From Colwellia sp. (lineage in GTDB: Bacteria; Pseudomonadota; Gammaproteobacteria; Enterobacterales; Alteromonadaceae): a stretch of 64,000 nucleotides of DNA. The notes below the pieces were generated by a model. The model was not told where the DNA came from and did not search any database. It saw only the letters and a program-made list of their open reading frames with translations. Position 1 is the first letter of the stretch. Every line of letters begins with the position of its first letter. The stretch is taken from contig JABSOZ010000008.1 in NCBI GenBank assembly GCA_013215295.1, forward strand, positions 1 to 64,000. The letters run 5' to 3'. The position numbers and the translations under genes are program-made. This document shows positions 1 to 62,015 of this stretch, one piece after another.

Positions 1-61
1 AGTGTAGATCGAGGAAAAAATAAAGTAGAAGTGTATTAATGCTTTAACTGCTTTATTTTAC

Positions 62-162
62 CTTGTTCCCATACGCAGATATTAATCTGATCAGGTTCTA
101 CGGATCCCGCTTTCGCGATCTCAGCTTTAATTATTTTTAAAATAACCAAAGCACTCCGACAA
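62..162 (-). promoter_or_regulatory. TPP riboswitch (THI box), reading leftward
   Basis: Read on the minus strand this stretch has the conserved pieces of the thiamine pyrophosphate riboswitch in order: GTCGGAGTGC at 160-151, CTGAGA at 124-119, then GAACCTGATCAG and TAATATCTGCGTATGGGAA down to about 65. These match the P2/J2-4 and P4/P5 signature of the THI element (CTGAGA ... GAACCTGATCTGG ... GCGTAGGGAA). It should control a thiamine biosynthesis or thiamine/TonB transport gene starting to the left of base 1. The remaining 60 bases hold no start codon context I can assign. Bases 163-351, between the riboswitch and the divergent peptidase gene, are AT-rich and must carry both promoters; I see nothing else there. 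Confidence 0.9.
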
Positions 163-351
163 GTAAGTAGGGTAATACTAACGTATTACTTTAAAAACAC
201 GCAATATTAATTGTTCGTTTGGTTATAATAAATTTATCAACTAGCTCGGCTAGACGCATAATAAAGGTGTCTCATTAAGGTTCACAATAGACACTACACA
301 ATGTTAGTATATTGTATACATAAAATATAAGCAGTTATTAGGATCAAAATA

Positions 352-48695: not shown

Positions 48696-48728
48696 CCGTA
48701 AGCTGCTCTTAGCAACTGGTTAGCTTTT
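48691..48728. terminator. Terminator between convergent signalling genes
   Basis: GCTAACC (48691-48697) pairs with GGTTAGC (48718-48724) around an inner weaker stem (TAAG/CTTA), followed by TTTTAG. It overlaps both gene ends. Confidence 0.55.
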
Positions 48729-51719
48729 AGTGAATTGTTGTTGGTATTGCTTTGGGGTGCAATGAAAAGACTCTTTAAAGCAGCGACCAAAATAGGTCTG
48801 CGACGAAAATCCAACGTCTAAAGCAATTCTGCCAATTTTAGAGCCATTCTCAAGAAGAATTTTCGCTTTAGCTAAGCGGAATTCTTTAATGAAATTATTA
48901 GGTGTTGTACCCAGTATTACTTTCATTTTTCGTTGCAGCTGACGTTCACTCATTGCCATATTACTGGCTAATTCTTGAATACCTAAATCAGTTTCCAGAT
49001 ACATTTTTGTGACAAGTATTTCAAGCTTCTCAATAAACTTCTCATCAACTGATAAAACTTCGCTTTCGCTAGCCGTTAACTGCGATACTTTCTTCACGCT
49101 ATTGTCTTTTCGTTCTTCTTTTTGGTTGTCACGAAATTTATGTAAATAGTTCTGTTGTAATAACTTACGATTTTCAATCAAATTTTCAATTCGAATTAAT
49201 AACTCTTGTTGGTTGAAAGGTTTACTTAAATACTCATCAGCTTGTAAATTTAGACCATGAAGTCGGCTTTCTAGATCAGAGCGGGCGGTAAGTAAAATAA
49301 CAGGGATATGTGCAGTAAGTTCGTTGTCTTTTAACTGTTTGAGTACTTCGAAGCCATCAATACCTGTTAGCATAATATCGCAAACAATAAGATCTGGAAT
49401 ATATTCTTCAGCAATGAGTAGACCTTGTTCGCCGCTTGTTGCTAACAGGCAATGATGCTGCTGCTCAACCACTCTTTTAATATGGTTTTGCATATCTAAG
49501 TTATCTTCAATCACCAATACGACATTGTGTAAATTAGTTTGTGTTTTAGTTTTATTATTGTTTTGCTCTAATAATAATGAAGATACTTCACTTTCCGATA
49601 CACTCATCGGCAGCTGAGTTTCTATTTCTACAGCACTAGCTAAAGGAATCGATAATGAAAACTTACTCCCCTCATTATATTCACTGACTAAATTTATTCG
49701 CCAGTTATGCGCTTTTACTAATTCATTAACTAATGACAAACCAATACCAACACCAAATACGGCATGATTTTTATCATCGTCTGCTCGTTGAAAGCGTTCA
49801 AAAATTTTAACTTGAGACTCTTGATTAATGCCAATACCGGTATCGGTAATATCTAGAATAATATTATCTTGTTCAGAATAAGCACTAACTTTGATACTGC
49901 CACCAGCAGGCGTATATTTGATCGCATTAGCAAGTAAGTTAAAAATGATTTTTTCAAATCCTTGAGCGTCACATTCTAGCCAAAGGTCATTAGCAATATC
50001 AGCATCAAAACTTAAATCGTTTTGCTTAGCCAAGCGAGAGAAAGAGTCTATCGGCATAGCCATTAATTGGCTTAACCTATAAGTAGACAGCGAAAGTTTT
50101 GGATTGTCGGTGAGACGGGAAAGTTCTAATAATTGCTCAACCATACGAACTAATCGTAAGCCGTTACGTTTAGCCGTAGTAAGTTCTAACCCTTCTTCTT
50201 TACTGTGATCTTTTAGTAAATATTGATCTAGAATGCCATTAATAATAGTCAGTGGTGTTCTAAACTCATGAGAAATATTAGCGATAAACTTATCTTTTAA
50301 ATCTAACGTTTGTTTTTCTGTCAATTTTCGTGCAGTTAAATTAATAAAAGTAATAACAATAAGAGGTTTGTCTTCTCGATCTGCCCATTGCAATTCAGCT
50401 TGTACTGGTAATTCAGTGCCGTCAGTACGACGGGCAACACATTCTACTGAAATGCCAATATCTTTGCGTTGCAGTGCATACACATTGCTTTTAAAGTCAA
50501 AAAAGTAATGCATAGTATCTTCAGGTGAGAACAAGGTACTTACATATATATCTTTTAATTCATGCTCCAAACTTTGAAACATTTGAACCGCTGCAGGGTT
50601 TGCCGATAATATTTTTCCGTCAATAGATGTGGTTAAAATAGCATTGTTAGATGCACGTACAATGGCTTTATCTTCACTATTTAGGATTGAGCTGATGAGT
50701 TGATGATTCTTTTTAGATAGCGCTAGTTGTTCTTTTTGTTGGGTAAAAACTTTTTCCTTAAAGCTTAAGGTATGCTTTCTTTTGTAGTAAGCAATAAGAA
50801 TGATTAAAGCAAAAGCAATAGCTCCCCATATAGCGATGACAAAAGATTGCCAGTAAGAGTTTGTTATATAGGGAGAGTTAACTTCTAAACCAACAATATG
50901 AATGGTAAAAATAATACTAACCAGTAGTAATATATAAAGCTCGGGGTAGGTATCTTTGGCAAAAGGTTTGATTGGCTTTTGATTATTTAAAGACGTAGCC
51001 GCAGAAATGATAAGGGCACAATAAGGAATAAATTGTATTAAGCTTTGTATATAATCGTCTGTATAAATGGCTTGCCCTTGAACAAAGTAAAAATAGTTAA
51101 TATTTTCAATTAATAAAACTAATGAACCGATAAGCAGCGGCGAGTAAATAGATAGCCAAAATTTATCACGACATAGAAGAACACAGACCATTAATCTGAT
51201 AAAAATAAGGCCCGAAATCGTGATGTGAAACAATGCGGAAGGTAAAAAACTCTGGTCTACATTTTTTGAAAATTCTTCGGGGAGTAACACAAAATAACAA
51301 AAACAAGTGACAGTAAAAAAGATTGCCGGCACTCTGCCAGCAATGTATTTATTGAGTGGAGTTTCGCTTAGGTGAGGATTAGTTTCTATAGCGAGTAAAA
51401 TGAAAAAGTAGCTAAAGAGCGAGAAAAAATCTTGCAGTATTAGCGGTGCATCGATGAATTTACTGGAAAATATAATACCTGAAATAAGATCAACGATAAT
51501 AGCGAGTGAAAAAAATTGCCAGAACAGCTTTAATGAACGCGATTTAGTTTCTAAATAACTATAAACGACAAAAATAAAAGCTATCGCTTGTAAAAATATA
51601 GATGGGATCTGCAATAAAAAAGGCGATAACGAAGTAATGAAATTAGAAAGAATGGAATAAGGGAAGAAGGTCAGAATTATTGAAATTAATATAAATATTT
51701 TTTTATTAAGTTGCAGCAA
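48720..51719 (-). CDS. Membrane hybrid histidine kinase with receiver and AraC output
   Basis: A 999-residue one-protein two-component system. Order: ~eight transmembrane helices (1-320); a PAS domain (~345-460); HisKA with FIANISHEFRTPLTIINGIL (phospho-acceptor His ~484); HATPase_c with NLLANAIKYTPAGG and DITDTGIGI; a receiver domain with acceptor Asp in IVCDIMLTGIDGFEV (~780); and a C-terminal AraC helix-turn-helix (ELASNMAMSERQLQRKM, IGRIALDVGFSSQTYFGRCF, TPKQYQQQF). Kinase, receiver and DNA-binding output in one chain is typical of the Bacteroidetes HTCS type, but there the sensor is Reg_prop/Y_Y_Y. Here that sensor module is the convergent neighbour. Confidence 0.92.
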   Translation of the reverse strand: MLQLNKKIFILISIILTFFPYSILSNFITSLSPFLLQIPSIFLQAIAFIFVVYSYLETKSRSLKLFWQFFSLAIIVDLISGIIFSSKFIDAPLILQDFFSLFSYFFILLAIETNPHLSETPLNKYIAGRVPAIFFTVTCFCYFVLLPEEFSKNVDQSFLPSALFHITISGLIFIRLMVCVLLCRDKFWLSIYSPLLIGSLVLLIENINYFYFVQGQAIYTDDYIQSLIQFIPYCALIISAATSLNNQKPIKPFAKDTYPELYILLLVSIIFTIHIVGLEVNSPYITNSYWQSFVIAIWGAIAFALIILIAYYKRKHTLSFKEKVFTQQKEQLALSKKNHQLISSILNSEDKAIVRASNNAILTTSIDGKILSANPAAVQMFQSLEHELKDIYVSTLFSPEDTMHYFFDFKSNVYALQRKDIGISVECVARRTDGTELPVQAELQWADREDKPLIVITFINLTARKLTEKQTLDLKDKFIANISHEFRTPLTIINGILDQYLLKDHSKEEGLELTTAKRNGLRLVRMVEQLLELSRLTDNPKLSLSTYRLSQLMAMPIDSFSRLAKQNDLSFDADIANDLWLECDAQGFEKIIFNLLANAIKYTPAGGSIKVSAYSEQDNIILDITDTGIGINQESQVKIFERFQRADDDKNHAVFGVGIGLSLVNELVKAHNWRINLVSEYNEGSKFSLSIPLASAVEIETQLPMSVSESEVSSLLLEQNNNKTKTQTNLHNVVLVIEDNLDMQNHIKRVVEQQHHCLLATSGEQGLLIAEEYIPDLIVCDIMLTGIDGFEVLKQLKDNELTAHIPVILLTARSDLESRLHGLNLQADEYLSKPFNQQELLIRIENLIENRKLLQQNYLHKFRDNQKEERKDNSVKKVSQLTASESEVLSVDEKFIEKLEILVTKMYLETDLGIQELASNMAMSERQLQRKMKVILGTTPNNFIKEFRLAKAKILLENGSKIGRIALDVGFSSQTYFGRCFKESFHCTPKQYQQQFTKS

Positions 51720-52400: not shown

Positions 52401-52823
52401 TTATTCATTAGGTAAGGCATTGTCTAACGTCTTTAAAGAACGTAAAAATAATCCTAAGCCACCCATAGCAAGTACGAGTATTACAATTAAATCAAAAGAA
52501 CTCATGGTCTTAAAAGTAAACCTGATAGAGGATATTACGCCAAAGATTAACCCCGTTATTGAACCTATAGATAATACCCAACCTAGGATATTTTTACTGT
52601 TATAAAAAATAAGCCCAACACCAAACATAAACGGGATCATTATCATGCCACTGGTTACATTGTAATTGCCACCCATGGCGGAAAAGCCATATAAGCGCAC
52701 ACCCATACCAAAGCTTGATGTTACTGTTATGGCGTTTAATAACATATAAAAGCCACCACACATCATAATGATGCCAATAAAAAAGTGACTAAATCCGCCT
52801 GATGTACCACCTGCACCTTTCAT
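52401..52823 (-). CDS. Four-TM membrane protein
   Basis: A 140-residue Gly- and Met-rich protein with four transmembrane helices (FFIGIIMMCGGFYMLLNAI; VTSGMIMIPFMFGVGLIFY; ILGWVLSIGSITGLIFGVI; FDLIVILVLAMGGLGLFLRS). ATG 52823 is preceded by AAGGA. Its divergent neighbour is the YqiJ-like gene, 272 bases away, and it could be functionally linked to that membrane system, but nothing in sequence proves it. No named family recognised. Confidence 0.7.
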   Translation of the reverse strand: MKGAGGTSGGFSHFFIGIIMMCGGFYMLLNAITVTSSFGMGVRLYGFSAMGGNYNVTSGMIMIPFMFGVGLIFYNSKNILGWVLSIGSITGLIFGVISSIRFTFKTMSSFDLIVILVLAMGGLGLFLRSLKTLDNALPNE

Positions 52824-53094
52824 GTGTTTTCCTTGGAGTATTGTTTTTATTTACGATTATTATTAGCAGCATCATATAATCATTGATTGATAGTTGTCAC
52901 GAGAAAAGCAATTAAATCAAAATACTGTAGGCCTTTATTTTGATGACCTTATGTAAACAATATGCTAATTTGTTTCACAGAAATTATATTTAACTCACGC
53001 GCATTTGACATATTATGTCAAGAGTGTATGGTAAATATAGAAAATGAGCATCACAATGAATAGCTGATGTTAGCTATGAGTTTAAGGATAAACA

Positions 53095-53733
53095 ATGGAA
53101 CAGTTGCTAGAAGTCTCTTCACAATTCCCCACAGTAATATATTCGGCACTCTTGGGTATCGTTGTAGTTTATTGGTTGGTTGGCATGTTAGGTCTTGTCG
53201 ATTTGGGTTTAGCTGGAGATGCAGATCTCGATGTAGATATAGACAGCGATATTGATATTTCTGTCGGAGGCCTTACAGGGTTAATGCTCACCTTTGGTTT
53301 AACAGGTGTACCCTTCACTTTAGTCGTTAGCATTATTATTCTTATTTGCTGGTTAATCAGCTTTTACCTGCAATTCTATATTTTATCTTGGCTGCCTGAC
53401 GGTTGGTTATATTATTTGATGGGCTCTGTTAGTAGCTTTATCGTTTTTTTAATATCGTTGCCAATAACTGCCATTGTTATTCGTCCTTTGAAAGGACTAT
53501 TCAAGAGTGTAGAAGCCACCGAAAGTCATCACTTAGTTGGTAACAGTGCAACTATCGCCACAGGTACTGTCAGTGAAACCTTTGGTCAGGCTCGTTTGTT
53601 TAATAACGGGGCTGAAATTCTACTTGATGTTCGATGCGACCCAGAACACACCTTAAAAAACGGCGACGAAGTTTTACTTATAGAGTATTTAACAGAAAAA
53701 CATGCCTATATCGTCGCCCCGTATTCACAATAA
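53095..53733 (+). CDS. yqiJ: YqiJ-like OB-fold inner-membrane protein
   Basis: A 212-residue membrane protein with three to four transmembrane helices (VIYSALLGIVVVYWLVGMLG; VPFTLVVSIIILICWLISFY; YYLMGSVSSFIVFLISLPI), an acidic loop full of Asp (DADLDVDIDSDIDISV) and a C-terminal soluble NfeD-like OB fold (VGNSATIATGTVSETFGQAR, GDEVLLIEY). NfeD/YqiJ proteins occur next to flotillins and act with them in membrane microdomains. ATG 53095 has AGGATAA upstream. The flotillin gene follows after 72 bases. Gene order yqiJ-yqiK is the same as in E. coli. Confidence 0.87.
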   Translation: MEQLLEVSSQFPTVIYSALLGIVVVYWLVGMLGLVDLGLAGDADLDVDIDSDIDISVGGLTGLMLTFGLTGVPFTLVVSIIILICWLISFYLQFYILSWLPDGWLYYLMGSVSSFIVFLISLPITAIVIRPLKGLFKSVEATESHHLVGNSATIATGTVSETFGQARLFNNGAEILLDVRCDPEHTLKNGDEVLLIEYLTEKHAYIVAPYSQ

Positions 53734-53805
53734 ATAATCATAAAATCAAAATATATTTGGTCACTTAGTTAGTGGTCATTGTTTTTAAATAAGAGGAAAA
53801 AAAAC

Positions 53806-55788
53806 ATGGTAATGGAACCACTTTATCTAGCGATTGGAATCGGCGTACTTTTTGTCTTTTCACTTTTAATCATGGTTGCTAAGTTTTACCACAAAGTAGA
53901 ACAGGGCCAAGCATTGATCATCAACAAACTAGGTGCAGAACCTGAAATAAGTACCACGGGCGGTATGGTTATTCCGGTGATCCATAAAAAAGAAATTATG
54001 GATATTTCAACTAAGCGCATGATGCTTGAACGAAAAGGACGCTCCGGGCTTATTTGTCAGGATAATATTCGTGCTGACATCATTATTACCTTCTATATAC
54101 GTGTAAATGAAACGAAAGAAGACATTTTACGTGTCGCTAAACAAGTCGGTTGTGACCGTTCTTCGTACCCCGAAACTTTACAAGAACTTTTTGAAGCTAA
54201 ATTCTCAGAGGCGCTTAAAACAGTCGGTAAGCAATTAAACTTTACTGAGCTATTTACGCAACGTGATATCTTCAGAGATAAAATAAAAGAAGTTATCGGC
54301 CAGGATTTATCGGGCTATGTATTAGAAGATGTCGCCATTGATTTCCTTGAGCAAACTTCAATCCATGATTTAGACCCAAATAACATTATGGATGCTGAAG
54401 GGATCAGACGCATTACCGAGTTAACGTCTCAGCAGAGTGTTGAAACCAATGATTTAAAACGCCAAGAAGAAATTCGCATAAAGCGACAAGATATCGATGC
54501 TAAAGAAAAAGGTTTAGAACTTGATCGCCAATTAGCAGATGCGCAAGCGAAACAAACACGAGAAATTTCTACCGTGCAAGCACGTGAAGAAGCCGAAACT
54601 GCAAAGGTTGTTGAAGAAGAGCGTTGTAAATCTGAACAGGCAAGAATAGAAACAGAGCAGATCGTCGCCGTTGCCGAAGAAAACAAACAACGTGAAGCCG
54701 ATATTGCCGAGCAAAATCGCTTTAGAGCGGTTGCCATTGAAGAAGAAAAAGTAAAGCGCGCGCGCCAAATTGAAGCTATTGATCGTGAAAAAGAAGTTGA
54801 AATACTGCAGATAAATAAAGAGAAAGCGCTGGAAATCGAACGTAAGAATATTGCCGAAGTACAACGTGAACGTATCATGGTGGAAAAAGGTGTTGCCGAA
54901 GAAGAAGAGCGCATCAAAGATTTACGTGTTGTTTCTGAAGCTAACCGTCAAAAAGATGAAATAGTCATTAAAGCAAAGGCAGAAGCTGAACAAGCGCTTG
55001 TTAAAGATATTGAATCAGCGAAAGCGGAAGAGCAAGCTGCTGAACATATCGCAAGAAAAATGCAGACAATCGCCGAAGCGGAATTAAAGACGGCGAGCAA
55101 ACAAGCAGAGTCGAAGAAAATTTTAGCAGAAGGTAATCAAGCTGAAGCCGCATCTCAAGGACTTGCTGAGGCTCAAATCACCCTAGCCCAAGCCGATGCA
55201 CACGAAAGACAAGGCGAGGCAGAAGCTAAAACGCTTGAACTGAAACTTACCGCTGAAGCCAAAGGTATTCAAGAAAAAGCAATGGCTGAAGCTGCAGGAT
55301 TACGCGAAAAGCAAGATGTGCTTAATGCAATGACAGAGCAAGCAAAAGAGTTTGAAATTTTCGGTTTACGCTTAAATCAAGAACGTGAATTAACCTTAGC
55401 GAAATTAGACAACAGTGTTGATTTAGCCGAGAAGCAAGCGGGTGTATTAGCAACCGCATTAAGCAAAGCCAATATTAATATTATGGGCGGAGACGGAGAG
55501 TTCTTACGTCAATTCATGAGTGCTATTACGGTAGGTAAGTCTATAGATGGCTTAGTTAATGAAAGTGAAACGGTGAAAACCTTATTTAAAGACCACTTAA
55601 ATGGCGATCGTAATATTATGGACGATTTAGGTGGTGTGCTAGCGGGCGCTAATCAAACAAGCGAAACCATGAAAAATTTCAACATGTCTAAATTACTATC
55701 AACACTAAATAATGCTGATGACACACAAAAAGGTGTCTTGGCTAGCTTGTTAAACTTAGGCAGCGAAAAAACTTCAGGCACGAAATAG
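53806..55788 (+). CDS. yqiK: Flotillin / SPFH-domain protein (YqiK-like)
   Basis: A 660-residue flotillin. Order: an N-terminal membrane hairpin or anchor (~6-28, YLAIGIGVLFVFSLLIMVA); SPFH/band 7 domain (~30-200; VEQGQALIINKLGAEPE, ISTKRMMLERKGRSGLICQD); then ~300 residues of Glu/Ala/Lys-rich coiled coil (~205-510) and a flotillin C-terminal region. It should form large oligomers on the inner face of the membrane. The frame opens at 53779; AAGAGG 9 bases before ATG 53806 fixes the start. It sits between its YqiJ-like partner and a giant AAA+ ATPase. Longer than E. coli YqiK (553 residues). Confidence 0.92.
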   Translation: MVMEPLYLAIGIGVLFVFSLLIMVAKFYHKVEQGQALIINKLGAEPEISTTGGMVIPVIHKKEIMDISTKRMMLERKGRSGLICQDNIRADIIITFYIRVNETKEDILRVAKQVGCDRSSYPETLQELFEAKFSEALKTVGKQLNFTELFTQRDIFRDKIKEVIGQDLSGYVLEDVAIDFLEQTSIHDLDPNNIMDAEGIRRITELTSQQSVETNDLKRQEEIRIKRQDIDAKEKGLELDRQLADAQAKQTREISTVQAREEAETAKVVEEERCKSEQARIETEQIVAVAEENKQREADIAEQNRFRAVAIEEEKVKRARQIEAIDREKEVEILQINKEKALEIERKNIAEVQRERIMVEKGVAEEEERIKDLRVVSEANRQKDEIVIKAKAEAEQALVKDIESAKAEEQAAEHIARKMQTIAEAELKTASKQAESKKILAEGNQAEAASQGLAEAQITLAQADAHERQGEAEAKTLELKLTAEAKGIQEKAMAEAAGLREKQDVLNAMTEQAKEFEIFGLRLNQERELTLAKLDNSVDLAEKQAGVLATALSKANINIMGGDGEFLRQFMSAITVGKSIDGLVNESETVKTLFKDHLNGDRNIMDDLGGVLAGANQTSETMKNFNMSKLLSTLNNADDTQKGVLASLLNLGSEKTSGTK

Positions 55789-55826
55789 TTTAAATACAGT
55801 TAATTCATCAAGTATATATCAGGCAA

Positions 55827-55857
55827 TGTGCAATTATCGCTTAAAGATAATTGCACA
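55827..55857 (+). promoter_or_regulatory. Intercistronic hairpin between flotillin and ATPase genes
   Basis: TGTGCAATTATC (55827-55838) pairs perfectly with GATAATTGCACA (55846-55857), loop of 7. No T-run follows, and the next start codon is 20 bases away. It is more likely an mRNA-stability, processing or attenuation element than a full terminator. Confidence 0.5.
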
Positions 55858-55876
55858 ATAGCTCATGGAGTCTTAC

Positions 55877-58800
55877 ATGACAGATAAGGAAAGCGTCACT
55901 AATCAGGCTGTTGCCGAAGGTGGTTCATATGAACTCATTCAACGCAGATTATCAGCCTTAGGTAGTGAACTTAATGCACAAATAAAGCAGCTAAACGACG
56001 AAAGAATTGTCACGTTTGGCTCCACCGATATGAAAGTTGATGCTCGCGTGCGAGTAAGAACGGAGCATAATTGTGTTGCGAGAGATATTGCCGCCATTGG
56101 AGATACATTACTGTTTGGCTATAACGTCTTTTTAGGCTTAAAGCGAAATATTACCGTTTCAGATGTTTTTAGCTTACACCAAGTCAAAGGTGACGGCGAT
56201 GACATAGAAATTGTTGATGTGCCAATGCAAGGCAGCTTTCTTGAAGCCCCTGAATTTGTCCGAGATTTTGATGAGTTATATACCTATTACAAAAAAACCT
56301 TTTTAGCCCATGTTTATCGACAAGGTAGCAAAGTATTTGCCGTATTTCGCATTGGCGAACGCCTTGATGATATTAGAGTGTTCCGGTGGGGCATAGACGC
56401 TGACCAACAAGTTAGCTACATCGATAATCGTGGTGAAAGGGATATAAAACAGCCTGAAAATTTCGATTTTGAATGGCATAAAGTATCACGAGAGCAACAA
56501 GAACATGGTAAGCACCCACACTTCAATTTATATGACACTCTGTTTGTTGAAGCAATAGGTGGCTCGATTACCTTAAAAGTAGAAAACAATACTGAAGCAG
56601 GCCAAGGCATATATTCAGAGCCAGTTGATGACGAGCATCAGTCTATAGATGATGCAGAAATTCATTACGCTAGAGTTGGCGAACTGATTTTACTAAAAAT
56701 AAAACCGTATCGTGAAACTGAAACTCGTCATTTAATTTTTAACAGCAAAACCCAGAAAGTAATTAGGCAAGATGCCATTGCCCATGCTTGTATTCAATTG
56801 CCAGAAGATCACGGCATTATCTTCCCTGGTGGTTATTACTTACAAAGTGGCGAACACAAAAGTTTTGAAGATAATGCGGAAGATTTACAGTTACACCGTG
56901 TGGTAAAATCGCCTAATGGTGAAGATTTTCTTTATATCTTTTATGAACCAAACGAAGGGCAATACGCTTTGTTTGGCTATAACTTGATCACCAGAACACT
57001 ACAAAATCCAATTTATGGCCATGGTCAAAGTTTATATAACAACGGCAGAGCGGTGGTGTTTAATGCTGAAACTGAGCCGTCTCGTGTTCATGCTATGCAA
57101 ATATGGCAAACACCTTTTTGCAGTGAAGAGTTTGCGAGTAATCAACCAACCGATAATAGCTTCTTTGGTAAAATAGGAAATCCTGAACTTGTTCGTGGTA
57201 TTTCTGATTTATACAGCGTAGCAAAACTGATCTCAGTTAAAAAACCGAGTGCACAGCACTTTAATGACTTAGTGAAAGAGTCTAGGCAGATTTTTGATAA
57301 ATATCATTGGCTTAATGATAAAGATTTAACCTTGCTGTATGATCTGATAAAACAAGTAGCAACAACGTCAGAGCTGGTTTTAGATGAATTCGAAAAAGTT
57401 ACCAGTATCAAAGAAAATTCAGATCTTGTTTTATTGCAAGCGCAAGAAAAACTAGCCGCATTAGCTTCGCAAGTAACAGTTTCTGGCTTTGATAATGCTA
57501 AAAAATTCGTTGATAGTTTAGCTGACTTAGCCCAATTTAAAGGGCAGTTAATTTCTCACAAAGACTTGCGCTATATCGATGTTGACGCAATTACCGCGAT
57601 GGAAAGTAATTTAGATACGTTAACAAAAGAGCTTAGCCAAGCAACCGCGGACTTCCTTCAACAAGACGATGCACTAACGCCTTATCAAAAGACCATTGAA
57701 GAACTAGAAAACGCGATAGAAAAAAGTGAATCTGTTACCTCATTAAAACCTGTTCGGGCAGCAATTGCAGAACTCGTGCAAGGGTTAGAGTTACTTAATC
57801 GCACTATGCTTTCATTAGAAATTGAAGACAGCCGTCAAAGAACGCGTATTTTAGAAGATATTTCAGCTGTTTTTAGTCAAATAAATCGCGTTAAAGCAAC
57901 TGCAGATCTAGCGGCTAAAAATGTCGGCAGTGAAGAAGCGAGTGCTGAATTTGGTGCTCGATTTAAACTATTAAGCCAAAGTGTCACCAGTGCTTTAAAT
58001 GCCAGTGACACGCCTCAAGCTTGTGATCAGCAACTCTCTCAAATACTGATTCAGCTTGAAGACTTAGAAAGCCAGTTTAGTGATTATGATGATTTTTATA
58101 ATGAAATTATCACTAAGCGAGATGAAATATACGACAATTTTGAACAACATAAACAGCAGCTTATGGATGCACAGCAACGTCGTTGTCTTAATTTGATGAC
58201 CGCGGCCGAGCGTATTATTTCAGGTGTTATCAGACGCAGCCAATCATTCAATCAACAAGACAAATTAAACAGCTATTTTGCTGGCGATCCTATGGTGTCT
58301 AAACTTAGAAAGTTAATTGAACAGCTTCGAGAGCTTGACGACAATGTAAGAGCTGATGATATTGATGCTCAGCTGAAAAATGCTAAAGAGCAAGGAATAA
58401 GAGCACTCAGAGACAAAACGGATATTTATTCTGCAGACGGTAGTTTAGTGAAAATAGGCGATCACCAATTTTCGGTGAATCGACAAAAATTAGAGTTAAC
58501 TTTATTACCTCGTGATGGCTCTATGGTTTTGCATATCAGTGGCAGTGAATACTTTGAAACGCTAGCAGCTGATATGTTTGCCGGTACTGAATACCTTTGG
58601 CAGCAAGAGCTCATTTCTGAATCCGAAAAGGTTTATCGAGGAGAGTATTTAGCAGCAAGTCTGTTATTTGCAGCTGAATTATCAGGAAAATCTGAACTAG
58701 ATAGTTTAAAAGCAGCGGTAAAAAATAATGAAATAGGTGATGTGGTGAGAAAAGCTGCCGAGCCTCGTTATCAAGAAGGTTATGACAAAGGCGTACACGA

Positions 58801-61096
58801 TGCTGATGCTGCTTTAATTTTAACGCAATTACTTGCCTTAAGAGAATCTATTGGTTTGCTTGCTTATCCCGTAGCAGAACGAAGACTCGCGGTACTATTT
58901 TTCTCTGAAGGATTAGCAAGTAATGGCCGAGAAGACTTAGTACATCGCAGTAATAACCTGCACATCATGGAAGAAACCTTTGGTGATAATCAATTACGTC
59001 AGCAACTTATCAAAGAACTCGCCACGTTATTAGATACCTATCTAGAAAGTCAGCCTTGGCTGAAATGTGACACGTTATTGTCAGCAACCTACCTCCTGCA
59101 AGAGTTAGCTCAAGCTGAGCAAAAGTTTGTTATTAAAGAAAGTAGTGCTGAATTAGCAAACCAACTGAAGAGCCAGTTAAAGCATAAGAGCTTAGAAAAA
59201 CAAATCAAAGGCGCATTATCGGGTTGTGCAACGCTAGAGCAAAAATATCAACTTCACTGGGCGTGGTTGCAATCTTTCTCTGTGCATCAGGAAATGAATA
59301 TTCATCAAGACGTTTTGGCAGAAGCAGCCATTTTGATGCTGATGGCAGAGCAGTGTGAGTTCTATACTTCTCTTGCTGATACCGAATGTGTTGTTGATGG
59401 TCTACTGGGACAGCATGGACAAATTACCGATAGAAAAATTAATATAAATTATCAAGAATTTATTACTCGACTTCGTCAATTTAGCCATGAGCATGTGCCG
59501 GCATTTAAAGCCTTTCACGCCAAAAAGCAAAGTGTATTAGCCGTGCAACGTAAGCGACTACGTTTGGCAGAGTTCAAGCCAAGTGCCTTGGCTTCTTTTG
59601 TTCGTAATAAATTAATCAATGATGTTTATTTCCCAATTATTGGTACTAACCTAGCGAAACAAATTGGCGCAGCGGGTAATAATAAACGCTCAGATTTAAT
59701 GGGTTTATTACTGCTAATATCGCCACCAGGATATGGTAAAACAACACTTATTGAATATGTTGCCAGCAAGCTAGGCATGACCTTTGTTAAAATAAATTGT
59801 CCGTCTATCGGTCATGACCAATTATCGCTAGATCCGGCGCAAGCAAATAACTCAACCGCAAAAAATGAAGTTGAAAAAATTAACCTAGCCTTTGAAATGG
59901 GCAATAATGTCATGTTGTATCTTGATGATATTCAGCATACGAACCCTGAATTTTTACAAAAATTTATCTCGTTATGTGATGGTTCAAGAAAGGTTGATGG
60001 TGTGTGGAATGGGATGAGTAAAACTTATGATATGCGCGGTAAAAAGTTTGCAGTCGTTATGGCAGGTAACCCTTATACCGAGTCAGGTGAGGCATTTAGC
60101 ATTCCTGATATGTTAGCTAACCGCGCTGATATTTATAACTTAGGCGATACCCTAAGTGGCCGTGAACATGAATTCTCTTTAAGTTTTATTGAAAACAGTT
60201 TAACCAGTAATCGTTACATCGCACCACTTGCGACACGAGACATGGATGATTTATATAATCTAGTCAGAATTGCTGATGGTGAACAAGTGGCGACTACGGA
60301 ATTAAAACATAGTTACTCTCAAGCTGAAGTGAATGAAATAGTTGCTGTTATTCAACGTATTCGTAAGATCCAAGAAACTGTTTTAAAAGCCAATGAGCAG
60401 TACATAGCTTCTGCTGCGCAAGACGATAAATATCGTACTGAACCTCCGTTCAAGTTGCAGGGAAGTTACCGCAATATGAATAAAATGGCGGAAAAAGTTG
60501 TGCCGGTAATGACCGAAGAAGAAGTTGAGCAACTCATCGTTGATCATTATCGTGGCGAAGCTCAAACGTTGACCATAGGCGCTGAAGAAAACTTACTCAA
60601 ACTCGGTGAGCTGCGTGGAACTCAAACGGATGAACAAACCCTTCGCTGGAAGCAAATCAAAGCAGATTTTGTACGTCACCAAAGCCTCGGCGATAGTGAC
60701 AACCCTATCGCTGCGGTTGCTAGCCAAATATCATTATTACAAAAAGGGCTAAATCAAATAGGTGAGGCATTGTTGCAACCTCAATCGACAGGTTTAGACA
60801 CCTTAAATGAAACACTTGCCAGTCTTAAACTACAAGTAAATGTTGAAAAGCCAGATAACTCGGAGTTAGAAAAAACACTGTCGTTATTTAGCCAAAGTAT
60901 GGAGTCTTTTCTAACGCCACTGGTTACCGCACTGCAAAGTAATAAGAACGTCGATATTGAAATGATTGATACGTTAAAAACTTTAAACCTGACCACTGAA
61001 AAGTCAGTAAAAAGTTCAGAGACCCATATTCAAAAAATCAGTAGAGAATTGGCATCAGGCAAGAAAAACAGTATTGACGAGGTGCTTGTTGACTAG
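55877..61096 (+). CDS. Giant AAA+ ATPase linked to flotillin (annotated elsewhere as DNA repair ATPase)
   Basis: A 1739-residue cytoplasmic protein. The N-terminal ~420 residues are beta-rich (ERLDDIRVFRWGIDADQQVS; LHRVVKSPNGEDFLYIFYEP), possibly a propeller. Residues ~440-800 are long alpha-helical coiled coil. Near ~1282 a AAA+ module begins: Walker A SPPGYGKTTL (K1288), Walker B NVMLYLDDIQHT, a sensor-1-like VVMAGNPYTESG and NRADIYNLGDT, resembling MoxR-type ATPases. Then a helical C-terminal part. Databases often call such proteins DNA repair ATPase; I see no nuclease or DNA-binding motif to back that. The frame opens at 55865; GGAG 6 bases before ATG 55877 fixes the start. Likely works with the two upstream membrane proteins. 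Confidence 0.8.
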   Translation: MTDKESVTNQAVAEGGSYELIQRRLSALGSELNAQIKQLNDERIVTFGSTDMKVDARVRVRTEHNCVARDIAAIGDTLLFGYNVFLGLKRNITVSDVFSLHQVKGDGDDIEIVDVPMQGSFLEAPEFVRDFDELYTYYKKTFLAHVYRQGSKVFAVFRIGERLDDIRVFRWGIDADQQVSYIDNRGERDIKQPENFDFEWHKVSREQQEHGKHPHFNLYDTLFVEAIGGSITLKVENNTEAGQGIYSEPVDDEHQSIDDAEIHYARVGELILLKIKPYRETETRHLIFNSKTQKVIRQDAIAHACIQLPEDHGIIFPGGYYLQSGEHKSFEDNAEDLQLHRVVKSPNGEDFLYIFYEPNEGQYALFGYNLITRTLQNPIYGHGQSLYNNGRAVVFNAETEPSRVHAMQIWQTPFCSEEFASNQPTDNSFFGKIGNPELVRGISDLYSVAKLISVKKPSAQHFNDLVKESRQIFDKYHWLNDKDLTLLYDLIKQVATTSELVLDEFEKVTSIKENSDLVLLQAQEKLAALASQVTVSGFDNAKKFVDSLADLAQFKGQLISHKDLRYIDVDAITAMESNLDTLTKELSQATADFLQQDDALTPYQKTIEELENAIEKSESVTSLKPVRAAIAELVQGLELLNRTMLSLEIEDSRQRTRILEDISAVFSQINRVKATADLAAKNVGSEEASAEFGARFKLLSQSVTSALNASDTPQACDQQLSQILIQLEDLESQFSDYDDFYNEIITKRDEIYDNFEQHKQQLMDAQQRRCLNLMTAAERIISGVIRRSQSFNQQDKLNSYFAGDPMVSKLRKLIEQLRELDDNVRADDIDAQLKNAKEQGIRALRDKTDIYSADGSLVKIGDHQFSVNRQKLELTLLPRDGSMVLHISGSEYFETLAADMFAGTEYLWQQELISESEKVYRGEYLAASLLFAAELSGKSELDSLKAAVKNNEIGDVVRKAAEPRYQEGYDKGVHDADAALILTQLLALRESIGLLAYPVAERRLAVLFFSEGLASNGREDLVHRSNNLHIMEETFGDNQLRQQLIKELATLLDTYLESQPWLKCDTLLSATYLLQELAQAEQKFVIKESSAELANQLKSQLKHKSLEKQIKGALSGCATLEQKYQLHWAWLQSFSVHQEMNIHQDVLAEAAILMLMAEQCEFYTSLADTECVVDGLLGQHGQITDRKININYQEFITRLRQFSHEHVPAFKAFHAKKQSVLAVQRKRLRLAEFKPSALASFVRNKLINDVYFPIIGTNLAKQIGAAGNNKRSDLMGLLLLISPPGYGKTTLIEYVASKLGMTFVKINCPSIGHDQLSLDPAQANNSTAKNEVEKINLAFEMGNNVMLYLDDIQHTNPEFLQKFISLCDGSRKVDGVWNGMSKTYDMRGKKFAVVMAGNPYTESGEAFSIPDMLANRADIYNLGDTLSGREHEFSLSFIENSLTSNRYIAPLATRDMDDLYNLVRIADGEQVATTELKHSYSQAEVNEIVAVIQRIRKIQETVLKANEQYIASAAQDDKYRTEPPFKLQGSYRNMNKMAEKVVPVMTEEEVEQLIVDHYRGEAQTLTIGAEENLLKLGELRGTQTDEQTLRWKQIKADFVRHQSLGDSDNPIAAVASQISLLQKGLNQIGEALLQPQSTGLDTLNETLASLKLQVNVEKPDNSELEKTLSLFSQSMESFLTPLVTALQSNKNVDIEMIDTLKTLNLTTEKSVKSSETHIQKISRELASGKKNSIDEVLVD

Positions 61097-61146: not shown

Positions 61147-61186
61147 AAAATAGCCATGGTTAGAATTAACTATGGCTATTTCTTTC
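61147..61186. terminator. Terminator after the ATPase gene
   Basis: AAATAGCCAT pairs with ATGGCTATTT, extended by an inner GTTA/TAAC pair, and is followed by CTTTC on the plus strand; on the minus strand the stem is followed by TTTGTTAC. It separates two convergent units. Confidence 0.8.
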
Positions 61187-61211: not shown

Positions 61212-62015
61212 TTATAGTAACTGTTCAACCTCACCTTCCTTATTAAGCACAACAGCCTTACTCAATAATTCATTATTTTGTAAGTACTTTCCGATAGTGG
61301 TAAAAGTAGTTGTGTACACTTTGCCTGAATGATCTTTCGTTGATACATCATCGACAAACCAATTTCCTAACAATAGCTTAAAAGGATTAGCCTTTATTTT
61401 TTGCGGTTTAAAATGCTGCGCTGCATTATTTTTAAGCTGGGCCATATCGGTTGTTTGGTAAACGCCAGCATTTAAAATATTGAGGGTATGTTCAGTACAA
61501 TTTTGAAACATGTTATTAAACGGGTTAGCAATCACCGAATAATTCTCGTTATGTAGCTGCTGGTCTTTACCGCTAGCGATCACATTGACTATGCGCTGCT
61601 GTAATGCTGGCGTTGGAATAATAATACCAGCCTTTAAGCTGCTCACTCCCCAAAAGAAATCGACAGGGTAATCAATCACTAATTCACTTTTGTCTGCTTG
61701 CCCCTCTTTTTGATAAAGGTTATGAATCGCATAACCTTTAACAATTTCACCGGTATCAAGGGTGATTGATGAATAGACAGCAATCGCTGTATGAGTAAAG
61801 TTTATTCCTTCAGGTAAGTCTTTTTCTGGCCTGCCAACCCGACCAATGATAAAAGCTCGTGCGCCTTCTTTGGCGGCAAATAATTCAACGGATTTAGCGA
61901 ATTTATCAACTTCTTTAGCTGAAAATTGTAACTCGGTGTTTTGAGCACTCCCGGCAAATGTAGGTAACGAAACAGTCAGCACTACAGCAAATAATAAACT
62001 TAAGAGCTTATTCAT
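61212..62015 (-). CDS. DUF2145 periplasmic protein
   Basis: A 267-residue exported protein with a signal peptide (cut after LPTFA). Family DUF2145 is recognised from FTHTAIAVYSSI (conserved His), GYAIHNLYQKEGQADKSELV, DYPVDFFWGVSSLKAGIIIP and NMFQNCTEHTLNIL with its conserved Cys. The His and Cys placement is reminiscent of papain-like/NlpC folds, so peptidase or amidase activity is possible but unproven. The ATG overlaps the stop of the upstream small gene by one base, so the two are co-translated. Confidence 0.85.
   Translation of the reverse strand: MNKLLSLLFAVVLTVSLPTFAGSAQNTELQFSAKEVDKFAKSVELFAAKEGARAFIIGRVGRPEKDLPEGINFTHTAIAVYSSITLDTGEIVKGYAIHNLYQKEGQADKSELVIDYPVDFFWGVSSLKAGIIIPTPALQQRIVNVIASGKDQQLHNENYSVIANPFNNMFQNCTEHTLNILNAGVYQTTDMAQLKNNAAQHFKPQKIKANPFKLLLGNWFVDDVSTKDHSGKVYTTTFTTIGKYLQNNELLSKAVVLNKEGEVEQLL

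Follow-up and report, generated by a model that had tools for sequence, protein, structure and literature searches.

Described relatives and the window operon

Operons that combine genes for CesT/Tir, PspA, flotillin, YqiJ and AAA+ ATPase proteins have been described by Ravi et al. (2024; PMC11237479), and the locus analyzed here, from Colwellia sp. (GenBank assembly GCA_013215295.1, contig JABSOZ010000008.1), is of the same kind. It occupies positions 53095-61096 of a 64,000-nucleotide stretch (hereinafter the window), in which all three open reading frames (ORFs) are confirmed and run in the same direction: a yqiJ-like gene (53095-53733, + strand; 212 aa, a putative NfeD2/DUF1449-type membrane protein with a predicted OB-fold region), a gene for an SPFH/flotillin protein of the ATPase-linked class (53806-55788, +; 660 aa) and a gene for a giant AAA+ ATPase (55877-61096, +; 1739 aa). 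The neighbors on the two sides are divergent (52401-52823, - strand) and convergent (61212-62015, -), respectively, so that the three genes form an isolated unit, a putative operon; the gaps, measured from ATG 53806 and ATG 55877, are 72 bp (yqiJ-flotillin) and 88 bp (flotillin-ATPase), and gene order bears out the initial annotation of this DNA in that the three genes are one linked unit with short gaps.

The available portions of PMC11237479 also name abbreviated operons and suggest that these work with PspA encoded elsewhere. The window operon lacks CesT and PspA genes of its own and corresponds to this abbreviated form: YqiJ, flotillin and AAA+ genes are adjacent and PspA is encoded elsewhere in the genome. 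The operon type is therefore already known, as a prediction, and the earlier view that such a machine is largely undescribed has to be given up, an operon with this ATPase being described there. The full form is represented by the bacABCDEF operon of Pseudomonas aeruginosa, the genes of which are reported to be co-transcribed (PMC10948618); BacA is a DUF2170 protein, BacB a PspA, BacC (PA14_16160) an NfeD protein and BacD (PA14_16180) an SPFH protein (PMC10948618, PMC13086221). Gene order points to bacE as the gene of the ATPase (PA3728), a protein termed 'ATPase' in the accessible text of PMC8190622. Biofilm defects are reported for bacA and pa3731 mutants (PMC10948618), and PA3729 appears in PMC8926400 in a pull-down table only, at background level; the BacA-like protein of one of our loci (L089) matches the solved DUF2170 structure 8q8o. 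A sigma-54 promoter has been proposed for the bac operon, whereas that of the window operon is of the sigma-70 type and carries a palindrome.

More distant relatives include the YqiJ-YqiK and SPFH2-NfeD2 operons (PMC2636767), in which, as described there, the gene order is the same and the N-terminal SPFH domain is likewise accompanied by a coiled coil. Unlike the window operon, Escherichia coli K-12 has no ATPase gene after yqiK, and for the related SO1376-SO1377 operon of Shewanella a terminator is reported downstream of SO1377 (PMC1468410); hence results obtained on these operons are not directly transferable. In the YdjI-PspA system of Bacillus subtilis an SPFH protein is needed to place PspA at the membrane, and the abstract of that study, in contrast to what is seen here, mentions no AAA+ ATPase (PMC8581546). 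The yjfIJKL operon of E. coli, which is of the CesT-PspA type, is reported to be raised in heat-evolved strains and is read as membrane-stabilising (PMC12492005). PspA itself has been placed in the ESCRT-III (endosomal sorting complex required for transport III) superfamily (PMC8281802, available portions), and how PspA homologues that lack a AAA ATPase partner regulate their assembly is called unknown in the available text of PMC11237479. No publication on DUF3686, the N-terminal domain of the ATPase, or on a 'DNA repair ATPase' with flotillin was found in the open literature searched; the match to the latter term combined with PspA concerned surface antigens of Streptococcus sanguinis.

Judged from the open literature, three aspects are new: an operator-like element with its regulon, a one-to-one match between the ATPase and one class of flotillin, and the presence of CesT and PspA throughout, even when unlinked. 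The available text of PMC11237479 contains no operator or regulon, no such class pairing and no counts of unlinked CesT, and neither 'palindrom' nor 'operator' appears anywhere in its main text. On this basis we propose, with a probability of roughly 0.6, that the window operon encodes an envelope-stress module coupled to PspA, in which flotillin and YqiJ would form a scaffold and the ATPase would remodel PspA assemblies or damaged membrane proteins.

A palindromic promoter element shared with PspA genes

The strongest functional clue, absent from the initial annotation, is an operator-like perfect palindrome, TTGACATATTATGTCAA, at 53005-53021 (core 53007-53019), which overlaps the -35 element (TTGACA, 53005-53010) of a predicted sigma-70-type promoter with a -10-like TATGGT at 53027-53032. 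Counts of predicted promoters and terminators in the window are not in excess over shuffles, and the promoter assignment therefore rests on conservation: the core precedes yqiJ both in the window and in all 7 aligned close relatives, the full 17-mer being perfect in five of these eight sequences (the window and four others).

The perfect palindrome is present at two places in the 5.77 Mb genome, ahead of the window operon and ahead of CesT-PspA, and its 13-bp core, GACATAWTATGTC, occurs seven times, against 0.42 expected and 0 for the reversed control. The core sites (window 53005-53021 and G000 C12:519950, C12:515931, C4:165663, C23:17086 and C29:16320) adjoin the window operon, CesT-PspA (a pair of sites with 35 bp spacing), a third pspA gene (pspA3), an NfeD-SPFH-SPFH operon, NhaA, and the head of a lipoprotein-DUF350-spermidine-synthase operon. 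Relatives of the ATPase number at least 559 in one genome collection, and 80 named loci were kept for neighborhood counts; these loci (1.85 Mb) contain 24 core sites in 20 loci, with 0.06 expected, all at the operon start, of which 21 precede the first operon gene by no more than 310 bp and three, in L067 and L090, lie immediately after the start called for that gene.

A search of 24 whole genomes recovered 70 core sites in 15 of them and none with the reversed control. Sixty of these sites, in 10 genomes, were examined (the remaining 10, at the operon, are part of the tally for the 80 loci); the window included, a lenient rule places 58 between genes, and two fall inside an over-extended CesT reading frame. 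Among seven Colwellia-type genomes, this one included and two of them (G000 and G605) close relatives, the core marks CesT in seven, the yqiJ-flotillin-ATPase operon in seven, NfeD-SPFH-SPFH in six, the lipoprotein-DUF350-spermidine-synthase operon in six, pspA3 in six and NhaA in four; in four Colwellia-type genomes pspA3 stands behind a gene for a small secreted protein. Neighbors seen only once include a YidC-type insertase, Yip1, a carbonic anhydrase, a DUF2059 protein and a further SPFH protein, and some sites have no recognisable target. The same whole-genome search detected no core site in the six ATPase-free genomes of the same family or in three more distant ATPase genomes. Across Colwellia-type genomes the 13-bp palindrome seems to mark an envelope-stress regulon of PspA, SPFH, NfeD and NhaA genes, and as such it could serve as an annotation key, pointing to regulon members that gene order leaves unconnected. 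In one genome (G604 C21; L195:364-2464) a further SPFH-like gene, by eye of the prohibitin type, comes immediately after the NhaA gene that adjoins the palindrome.

Association with CesT and PspA and a candidate regulator

Gene neighborhoods link the operon to the same partners. A CesT/DUF2170 gene precedes it in 48 of the 80 loci and a PspA gene in 47; the order in Hymenobacter is CesT-PspA-YqiJ-flotillin-ATPase, and in plasmid pQBR103 genes for YjfI, PspA and polyamine-type proteins stand directly ahead of YqiJ-flotillin-ATPase. In the window genome the CesT-PspA pair resides on another contig (C12:520063-521172). Co-occurrence was counted in an even draw of 299 genomes (the phylum set) and in a class set of 321 genomes, which have two ATPase genomes in common and together yield 13 distinct ones. 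CesT is encoded in 8/8 ATPase genomes of the phylum set versus 26/291 others (Fisher p 1.3e-8) and in a further 5/5 of the class set, that is, in all 13, even when unlinked; PspA is likewise encoded in 13/13, but it is common anyway, being found in 9 of 14 control genomes. Taken together, the coupling of the yqiJ-flotillin-ATPase operon to PspA appears well supported by genomic context.

A short protein (about 108 residues; L100:9917-10243) resembling ribbon-helix-helix (RHH) proteins is also encoded in the CesT-PspA operon, and the final gene of some spermine-synthase/CesT-PspA operons is called RHH in the available text of PMC11237479. Among CesT loci that were fetched before their site status was known, the exact core is present in 9/10 with the RHH-like gene versus 0/12 without it (p 2e-5), the latter figure leaving out four genomes (L223-L226) already known to have no sites; for all 36 CesT loci the numbers are 18/19 versus 1/17, the single case being L216, whose contig stops short of where the RHH-like gene would lie. 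Within the set of 80 ATPase loci, the core occurs in 10 of the 14 with an RHH-like gene in the locus and in 10 of the 66 without one; seven of the latter 10 are abbreviated Colwellia-type operons, and in most examined Colwellia-type genomes with an abbreviated operon the RHH-like gene is found in the distant CesT operon. Loci with the gene and no exact site include L031, with a near version differing by one mismatch, and L084 and L094, with paired variants. The RHH-like protein is thus likely, by this co-distribution, to be the regulator that acts through the palindrome.

Pairing of the ATPase with one flotillin class

The flotillin gene lies upstream of the ATPase gene in 78/80 loci, and a YqiJ orthologue upstream of the flotillin in 75/80 (74 by clustering). 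The two loci without a flotillin are L043, with no flotillin in 9.9 kb and, by eye, a transposase-like ORF nearby, and L082, where the contig begins 541 bp before the ATPase ORF; a frame-broken flotillin (L092) and one with an insert of about 2.4 kb (L093) were counted as present. The initial annotation had offered the frequent occurrence of the ATPase without the flotillin as an outcome that would count against it, and these numbers, like those for whole genomes, run the other way.

In the phylum set the ATPase is encoded in 8/299 genomes, exactly the eight with a high-scoring flotillin (367-421 bits), and in each of them the three genes are together; weaker YqiK-like flotillins (at most 144 bits) are found in another 28 genomes, all of which lack the ATPase. 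In the class set, all seven ATPase genomes of 321 have a high-class flotillin (352-402 bits), one more flotillin of this class (350 bits) is cut by a contig end, and the nine genomes with weaker flotillins all lack the ATPase. Combined, the high-class flotillin is found in 13/13 ATPase genomes, and the ATPase in 0/37 genomes with only weaker YqiK-like flotillins. The two genes are side by side in 11 of the 13 (adjacency in G433, G505 and G541 being judged from coordinates only), whereas in G519 they are on different contigs and in G526 two ORFs intervene. The latter two ORFs (L137:11445-12680) encode mutually similar products of about 195 aa each. On this comparative evidence the ATPase is tied to one flotillin class and to YqiJ.

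The pairing extends to plasmid records. Twelve of 72,556 records in a plasmid collection, some of them chromosome-sized, encode the ATPase; in the five of these 12 that were examined, which include pQBR103, the flotillin gene adjoins that of the ATPase and a YqiJ-like gene precedes it. Records from Streptomyces (with the weakest YqiJ-like match), Nonomuraea, Deinococcus and Hymenobacter are among them, which extends the unit to four phyla or more. The operon is also present in a contig filed as Bacillus subtilis SK7B5 (L074); its ATPase is 46% identical to that of the window, as close as the Stenotrophomonas ones, and the contig is probably contamination. In a related genome a single TGA interrupts the ATPase reading frame close to the 5' end (G007 C42; L012:6917-12010), reflecting either a pseudogene or a sequencing error.

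The window flotillin (P0002) is 29% identical to E. coli YqiK over 456 aa (E 8e-45) and combines an N-terminal transmembrane segment, an SPFH domain and a long coiled coil, the features of YqiK/SPFH2 proteins, the transmembrane segment and coiled coil being read from the sequence. It has no Pfam Band_7 or Flot match over the cut-off, and neither have the flotillins of L040 and L089, whereas E. coli YqiK matches both families; we therefore file it as a divergent class rather than as YqiK itself. For the YqiJ-like protein (P0001), a BLAST comparison with E. coli YqiJ gave no match and the YqiJ_OB profile match is below the cut-off (E 0.068), so that its identity as YqiJ rests on its fixed position and its family.

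Domain architecture of the ATPase

Profile scans of the ATPase, the only DUF3686 protein encoded in the 5.77 Mb genome, detect DUF3686 (PF12458; residues 35-481, E 1e-193, 644 bits against a cut-off of 25), DUF7902 (602-682) and AAA (1282-1402), in the order DUF3686-DUF7902-coiled coil-helical region-MoxR-type AAA+ module. As the initial annotation had anticipated, the N-terminal part is rich in beta-strands: AlphaFold models residues 1-490 with high confidence (pLDDT 89.8) mostly as four-stranded sheets in series, and the best Foldseek matches, with probabilities near 1 and low TM-scores, are mostly proteins that we take to be beta-propellers. Beta-propeller repeats are also described in the available text of Ravi et al. 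(PMC11237479).

Residues 850-1640 (pLDDT 88.0) form a helical region and the AAA+ module, for which NorQ or CbbQ, members of the MoxR group, make up 14 of the top 20 Foldseek matches (TMt 0.40-0.62 among them); the MoxR-like module noted at the outset is thus supported by fold. By sequence alone the module would be placed near Rix7, p97 and RuvB. Membership in the classical, Vps4-type AAA group was considered and rejected, the Rix7 and p97 sequence matches being short and the fold search ranking MoxR members first. The window ATPase differs from NorQ and CbbQ in its giant N-terminal propeller-like part and coiled coil, its Asp-Asp Walker B motif and the absence of a von Willebrand factor A (vWA) partner among the neighbors inspected.

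The Walker A motif (GYGKTT), the sensor 1 Asn, R1420 and R1536 are invariant in 87/87 aligned sequences; we regard R1420 as a candidate arginine finger and R1536 as a sensor-2-like residue, these motif names being our own assignments from the alignment. Of the earlier statement that Walker A and Walker B are both intact, the first half stands and the second requires correction. Walker B reads LDDIQ, with Asp at the position where most AAA+ proteins have Glu. The Asp-Asp is conserved in all 87 aligned sequences, which marks it as a family trait and not decay, and, since DnaA is able to hydrolyse ATP with a comparable Asp-Asp in its Walker B, it does not imply a dead site. In the ATPase of the Colwellia metagenome-assembled genome represented by L020, the nearest named relative among those listed, the best segment is 97% identical to that of the window.

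Functional interpretation and alternatives

With respect to mechanism, we envisage that the RHH-like protein would bind the palindrome and repress the gene set until the membrane is stressed, whereupon flotillin and YqiJ would build a membrane scaffold on which the ATPase could dock via its propeller or coiled-coil part. The MoxR-type ring would then spend ATP on remodelling either the ESCRT-III-like assemblies of PspA or membrane-protein complexes that have been damaged, and CesT would presumably act as the chaperone or regulator of PspA. The window locus would represent the abbreviated form of this system, with the PspA part encoded elsewhere under the same switch. A membrane-maintenance role, in line with the membrane repair suggested at the outset, is supported. 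With a dedicated ATPase, its scaffold and a DNA element that spells out a set of genes in hand, the regulation of PspA assembly becomes directly testable in marine laboratory strains.

Several observations weigh against this interpretation. No core site is present in 60 of the 80 ATPase loci. Three of the sites in this genome (at the window operon, the spermidine-synthase operon head and NhaA) lie in divergent gaps where the other gene could be the target or an additional one, the window palindrome being 196 bp from a divergent 140-aa ORF. The RHH assignment has weak profile support. G140, G195 and G526 have an RHH-like gene and a site at CesT while their yqiJ promoters have no site, and in G610 the core is found at CesT only; the shared switch accordingly appears to be a lineage feature, with shared control in trans seen in Colwellia-type genomes and two Pseudoalteromonas, not everywhere. 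The set of CesT, RHH-like gene and site can also be carried by ATPase-free genomes (G210, G216, G290, G164, G040 and G152), which indicates that it does not need this ATPase. The p-values for co-occurrence are inflated by kinship, and CesT is encoded in 4/6 ATPase-free genomes of the window's family. As for the protein itself, the propeller matches have TMq values of only 0.11-0.28 among the 50 listed, and, although a MoxR-type AAA+ protein usually has a vWA partner, none was found among five scanned window neighbors and seven further neighbor families.

A narrower alternative, which we consider unlikely yet deserving of serious attention, is that the ATPase is a remodeler specific to flotillin, such that a YqiJ-flotillin scaffold serves a MoxR-type ATPase that extracts, folds or assembles membrane complexes, in the manner of HflKC-FtsH or NorQ-NorD, PspA being merely co-induced as both respond to membrane damage. 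The linkage to flotillin (78/80 loci, 13/13 genomes) is indeed tighter than that to PspA (47/80 loci), the AAA+ fold is nearest to those of NorQ and CbbQ, and the operators also stand ahead of NfeD-SPFH and NhaA genes. However, the joint presence of CesT and PspA in all 13 ATPase genomes goes beyond what co-induction needs, an argument tempered by the frequency of PspA among the controls.

A bolder extension of the PspA-coupled module is a full ESCRT-like repair machine, with PspA as the polymer, CesT as its chaperone, flotillin and YqiJ as the mark of damage and the ATPase as the motor. In Colwellia-type bacteria, a single RHH-type regulator acting at TTGACATAWTATGTCAA would control all of these components along with the NfeD-SPFH, polyamine and Na+/H+ antiporter genes. 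The ATPase would then supply the missing motor, taking PspA polymers apart or reshaping them as an independently evolved counterpart of Vps4. We advance this extension tentatively and regard it as rather improbable in its entirety.

It seems highly improbable that the operon is a defence system against phages or competitors on a membrane platform, a role also entertained by the initial annotation. The spread is patchy (8/299 genomes, with the few plasmid records noted above), and rhomboid and PLD-like genes occur in 27 and 26 of the 80 loci, respectively; yet the three proteins match 0 PADLOC families and have no relatives in the phage and viral-contig collections searched, on which grounds defence was rejected, and the promoter element is common to envelope genes. 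TerB-like genes are found in 16 of the 80 loci, with a weak match (E 0.0095); the TerB/EF-hand-like protein, of 79 aa (e.g., L049:9505-9744) and with weak Pfam matches, is usually encoded between flotillin and ATPase.

Least credible of all is the role in the database label, that of a DNA-repair ATPase: the Pfam text for DUF3686 reads 'ATPase involved in DNA repair', several plasmid records have the label 'DNA repair ATPase', the P-loop has RuvB matches (19.9 bits, below the cut-offs of 27 and 282), RuvB and MCM are among the lower-ranked fold matches of the AAA+ module, and a mutant of the YqiK-type SO1377 of Shewanella is reported to be peroxide-sensitive and to give 100 times more resistant colonies (PMC1468410), but that gene belongs to the terminator-bounded operon mentioned above, profile scans find no DNA-repair family above the cut-off in the ATPase, its partners are membrane proteins and the promoter element is shared for the most part with membrane genes, so that this role was rejected on domains and shared promoter element, in agreement with the earlier remark that the label lacks visible support. 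Because the palindrome is common to PspA genes, 'DNA repair' is probably a wrong label for this ATPase, a case that touches a protein family with hundreds of relatives.

Additional features of the locus

Two start codons are available to the ATPase, a first ATG at 55865 (1743 aa) and a second at 55877 (1739 aa), the latter preceded by GGAG. The flotillin ORF is open from TTG 53779, and its likely start, judging from the AGAGGA in front of it, is ATG 53806. In the gap between the two genes, a predicted RNA hairpin (55828-55856, +; minimum free energy -22.1, raw value, for a 92-nt stretch) precedes the ribosome-binding site of the ATPase; a hairpin recurs at this position in L016, L018, L020 and L022, though the sequences differ, and may set the ratio of ATPase to flotillin.

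In the convergent gap downstream, an inverted repeat followed by a T-rich stretch (61148-61181) is a candidate terminator; it was spotted by eye and is not among the entries of the terminator scan. Near the operon, 48720-51719 (-) encodes a hybrid sensor kinase with PAS, HisKA and receiver domains and a C-terminal AraC-type helix-turn-helix domain, and a thiamine pyrophosphate riboswitch (Rfam RF00059, 67.2 bits) is located at window positions 50-168 (-).

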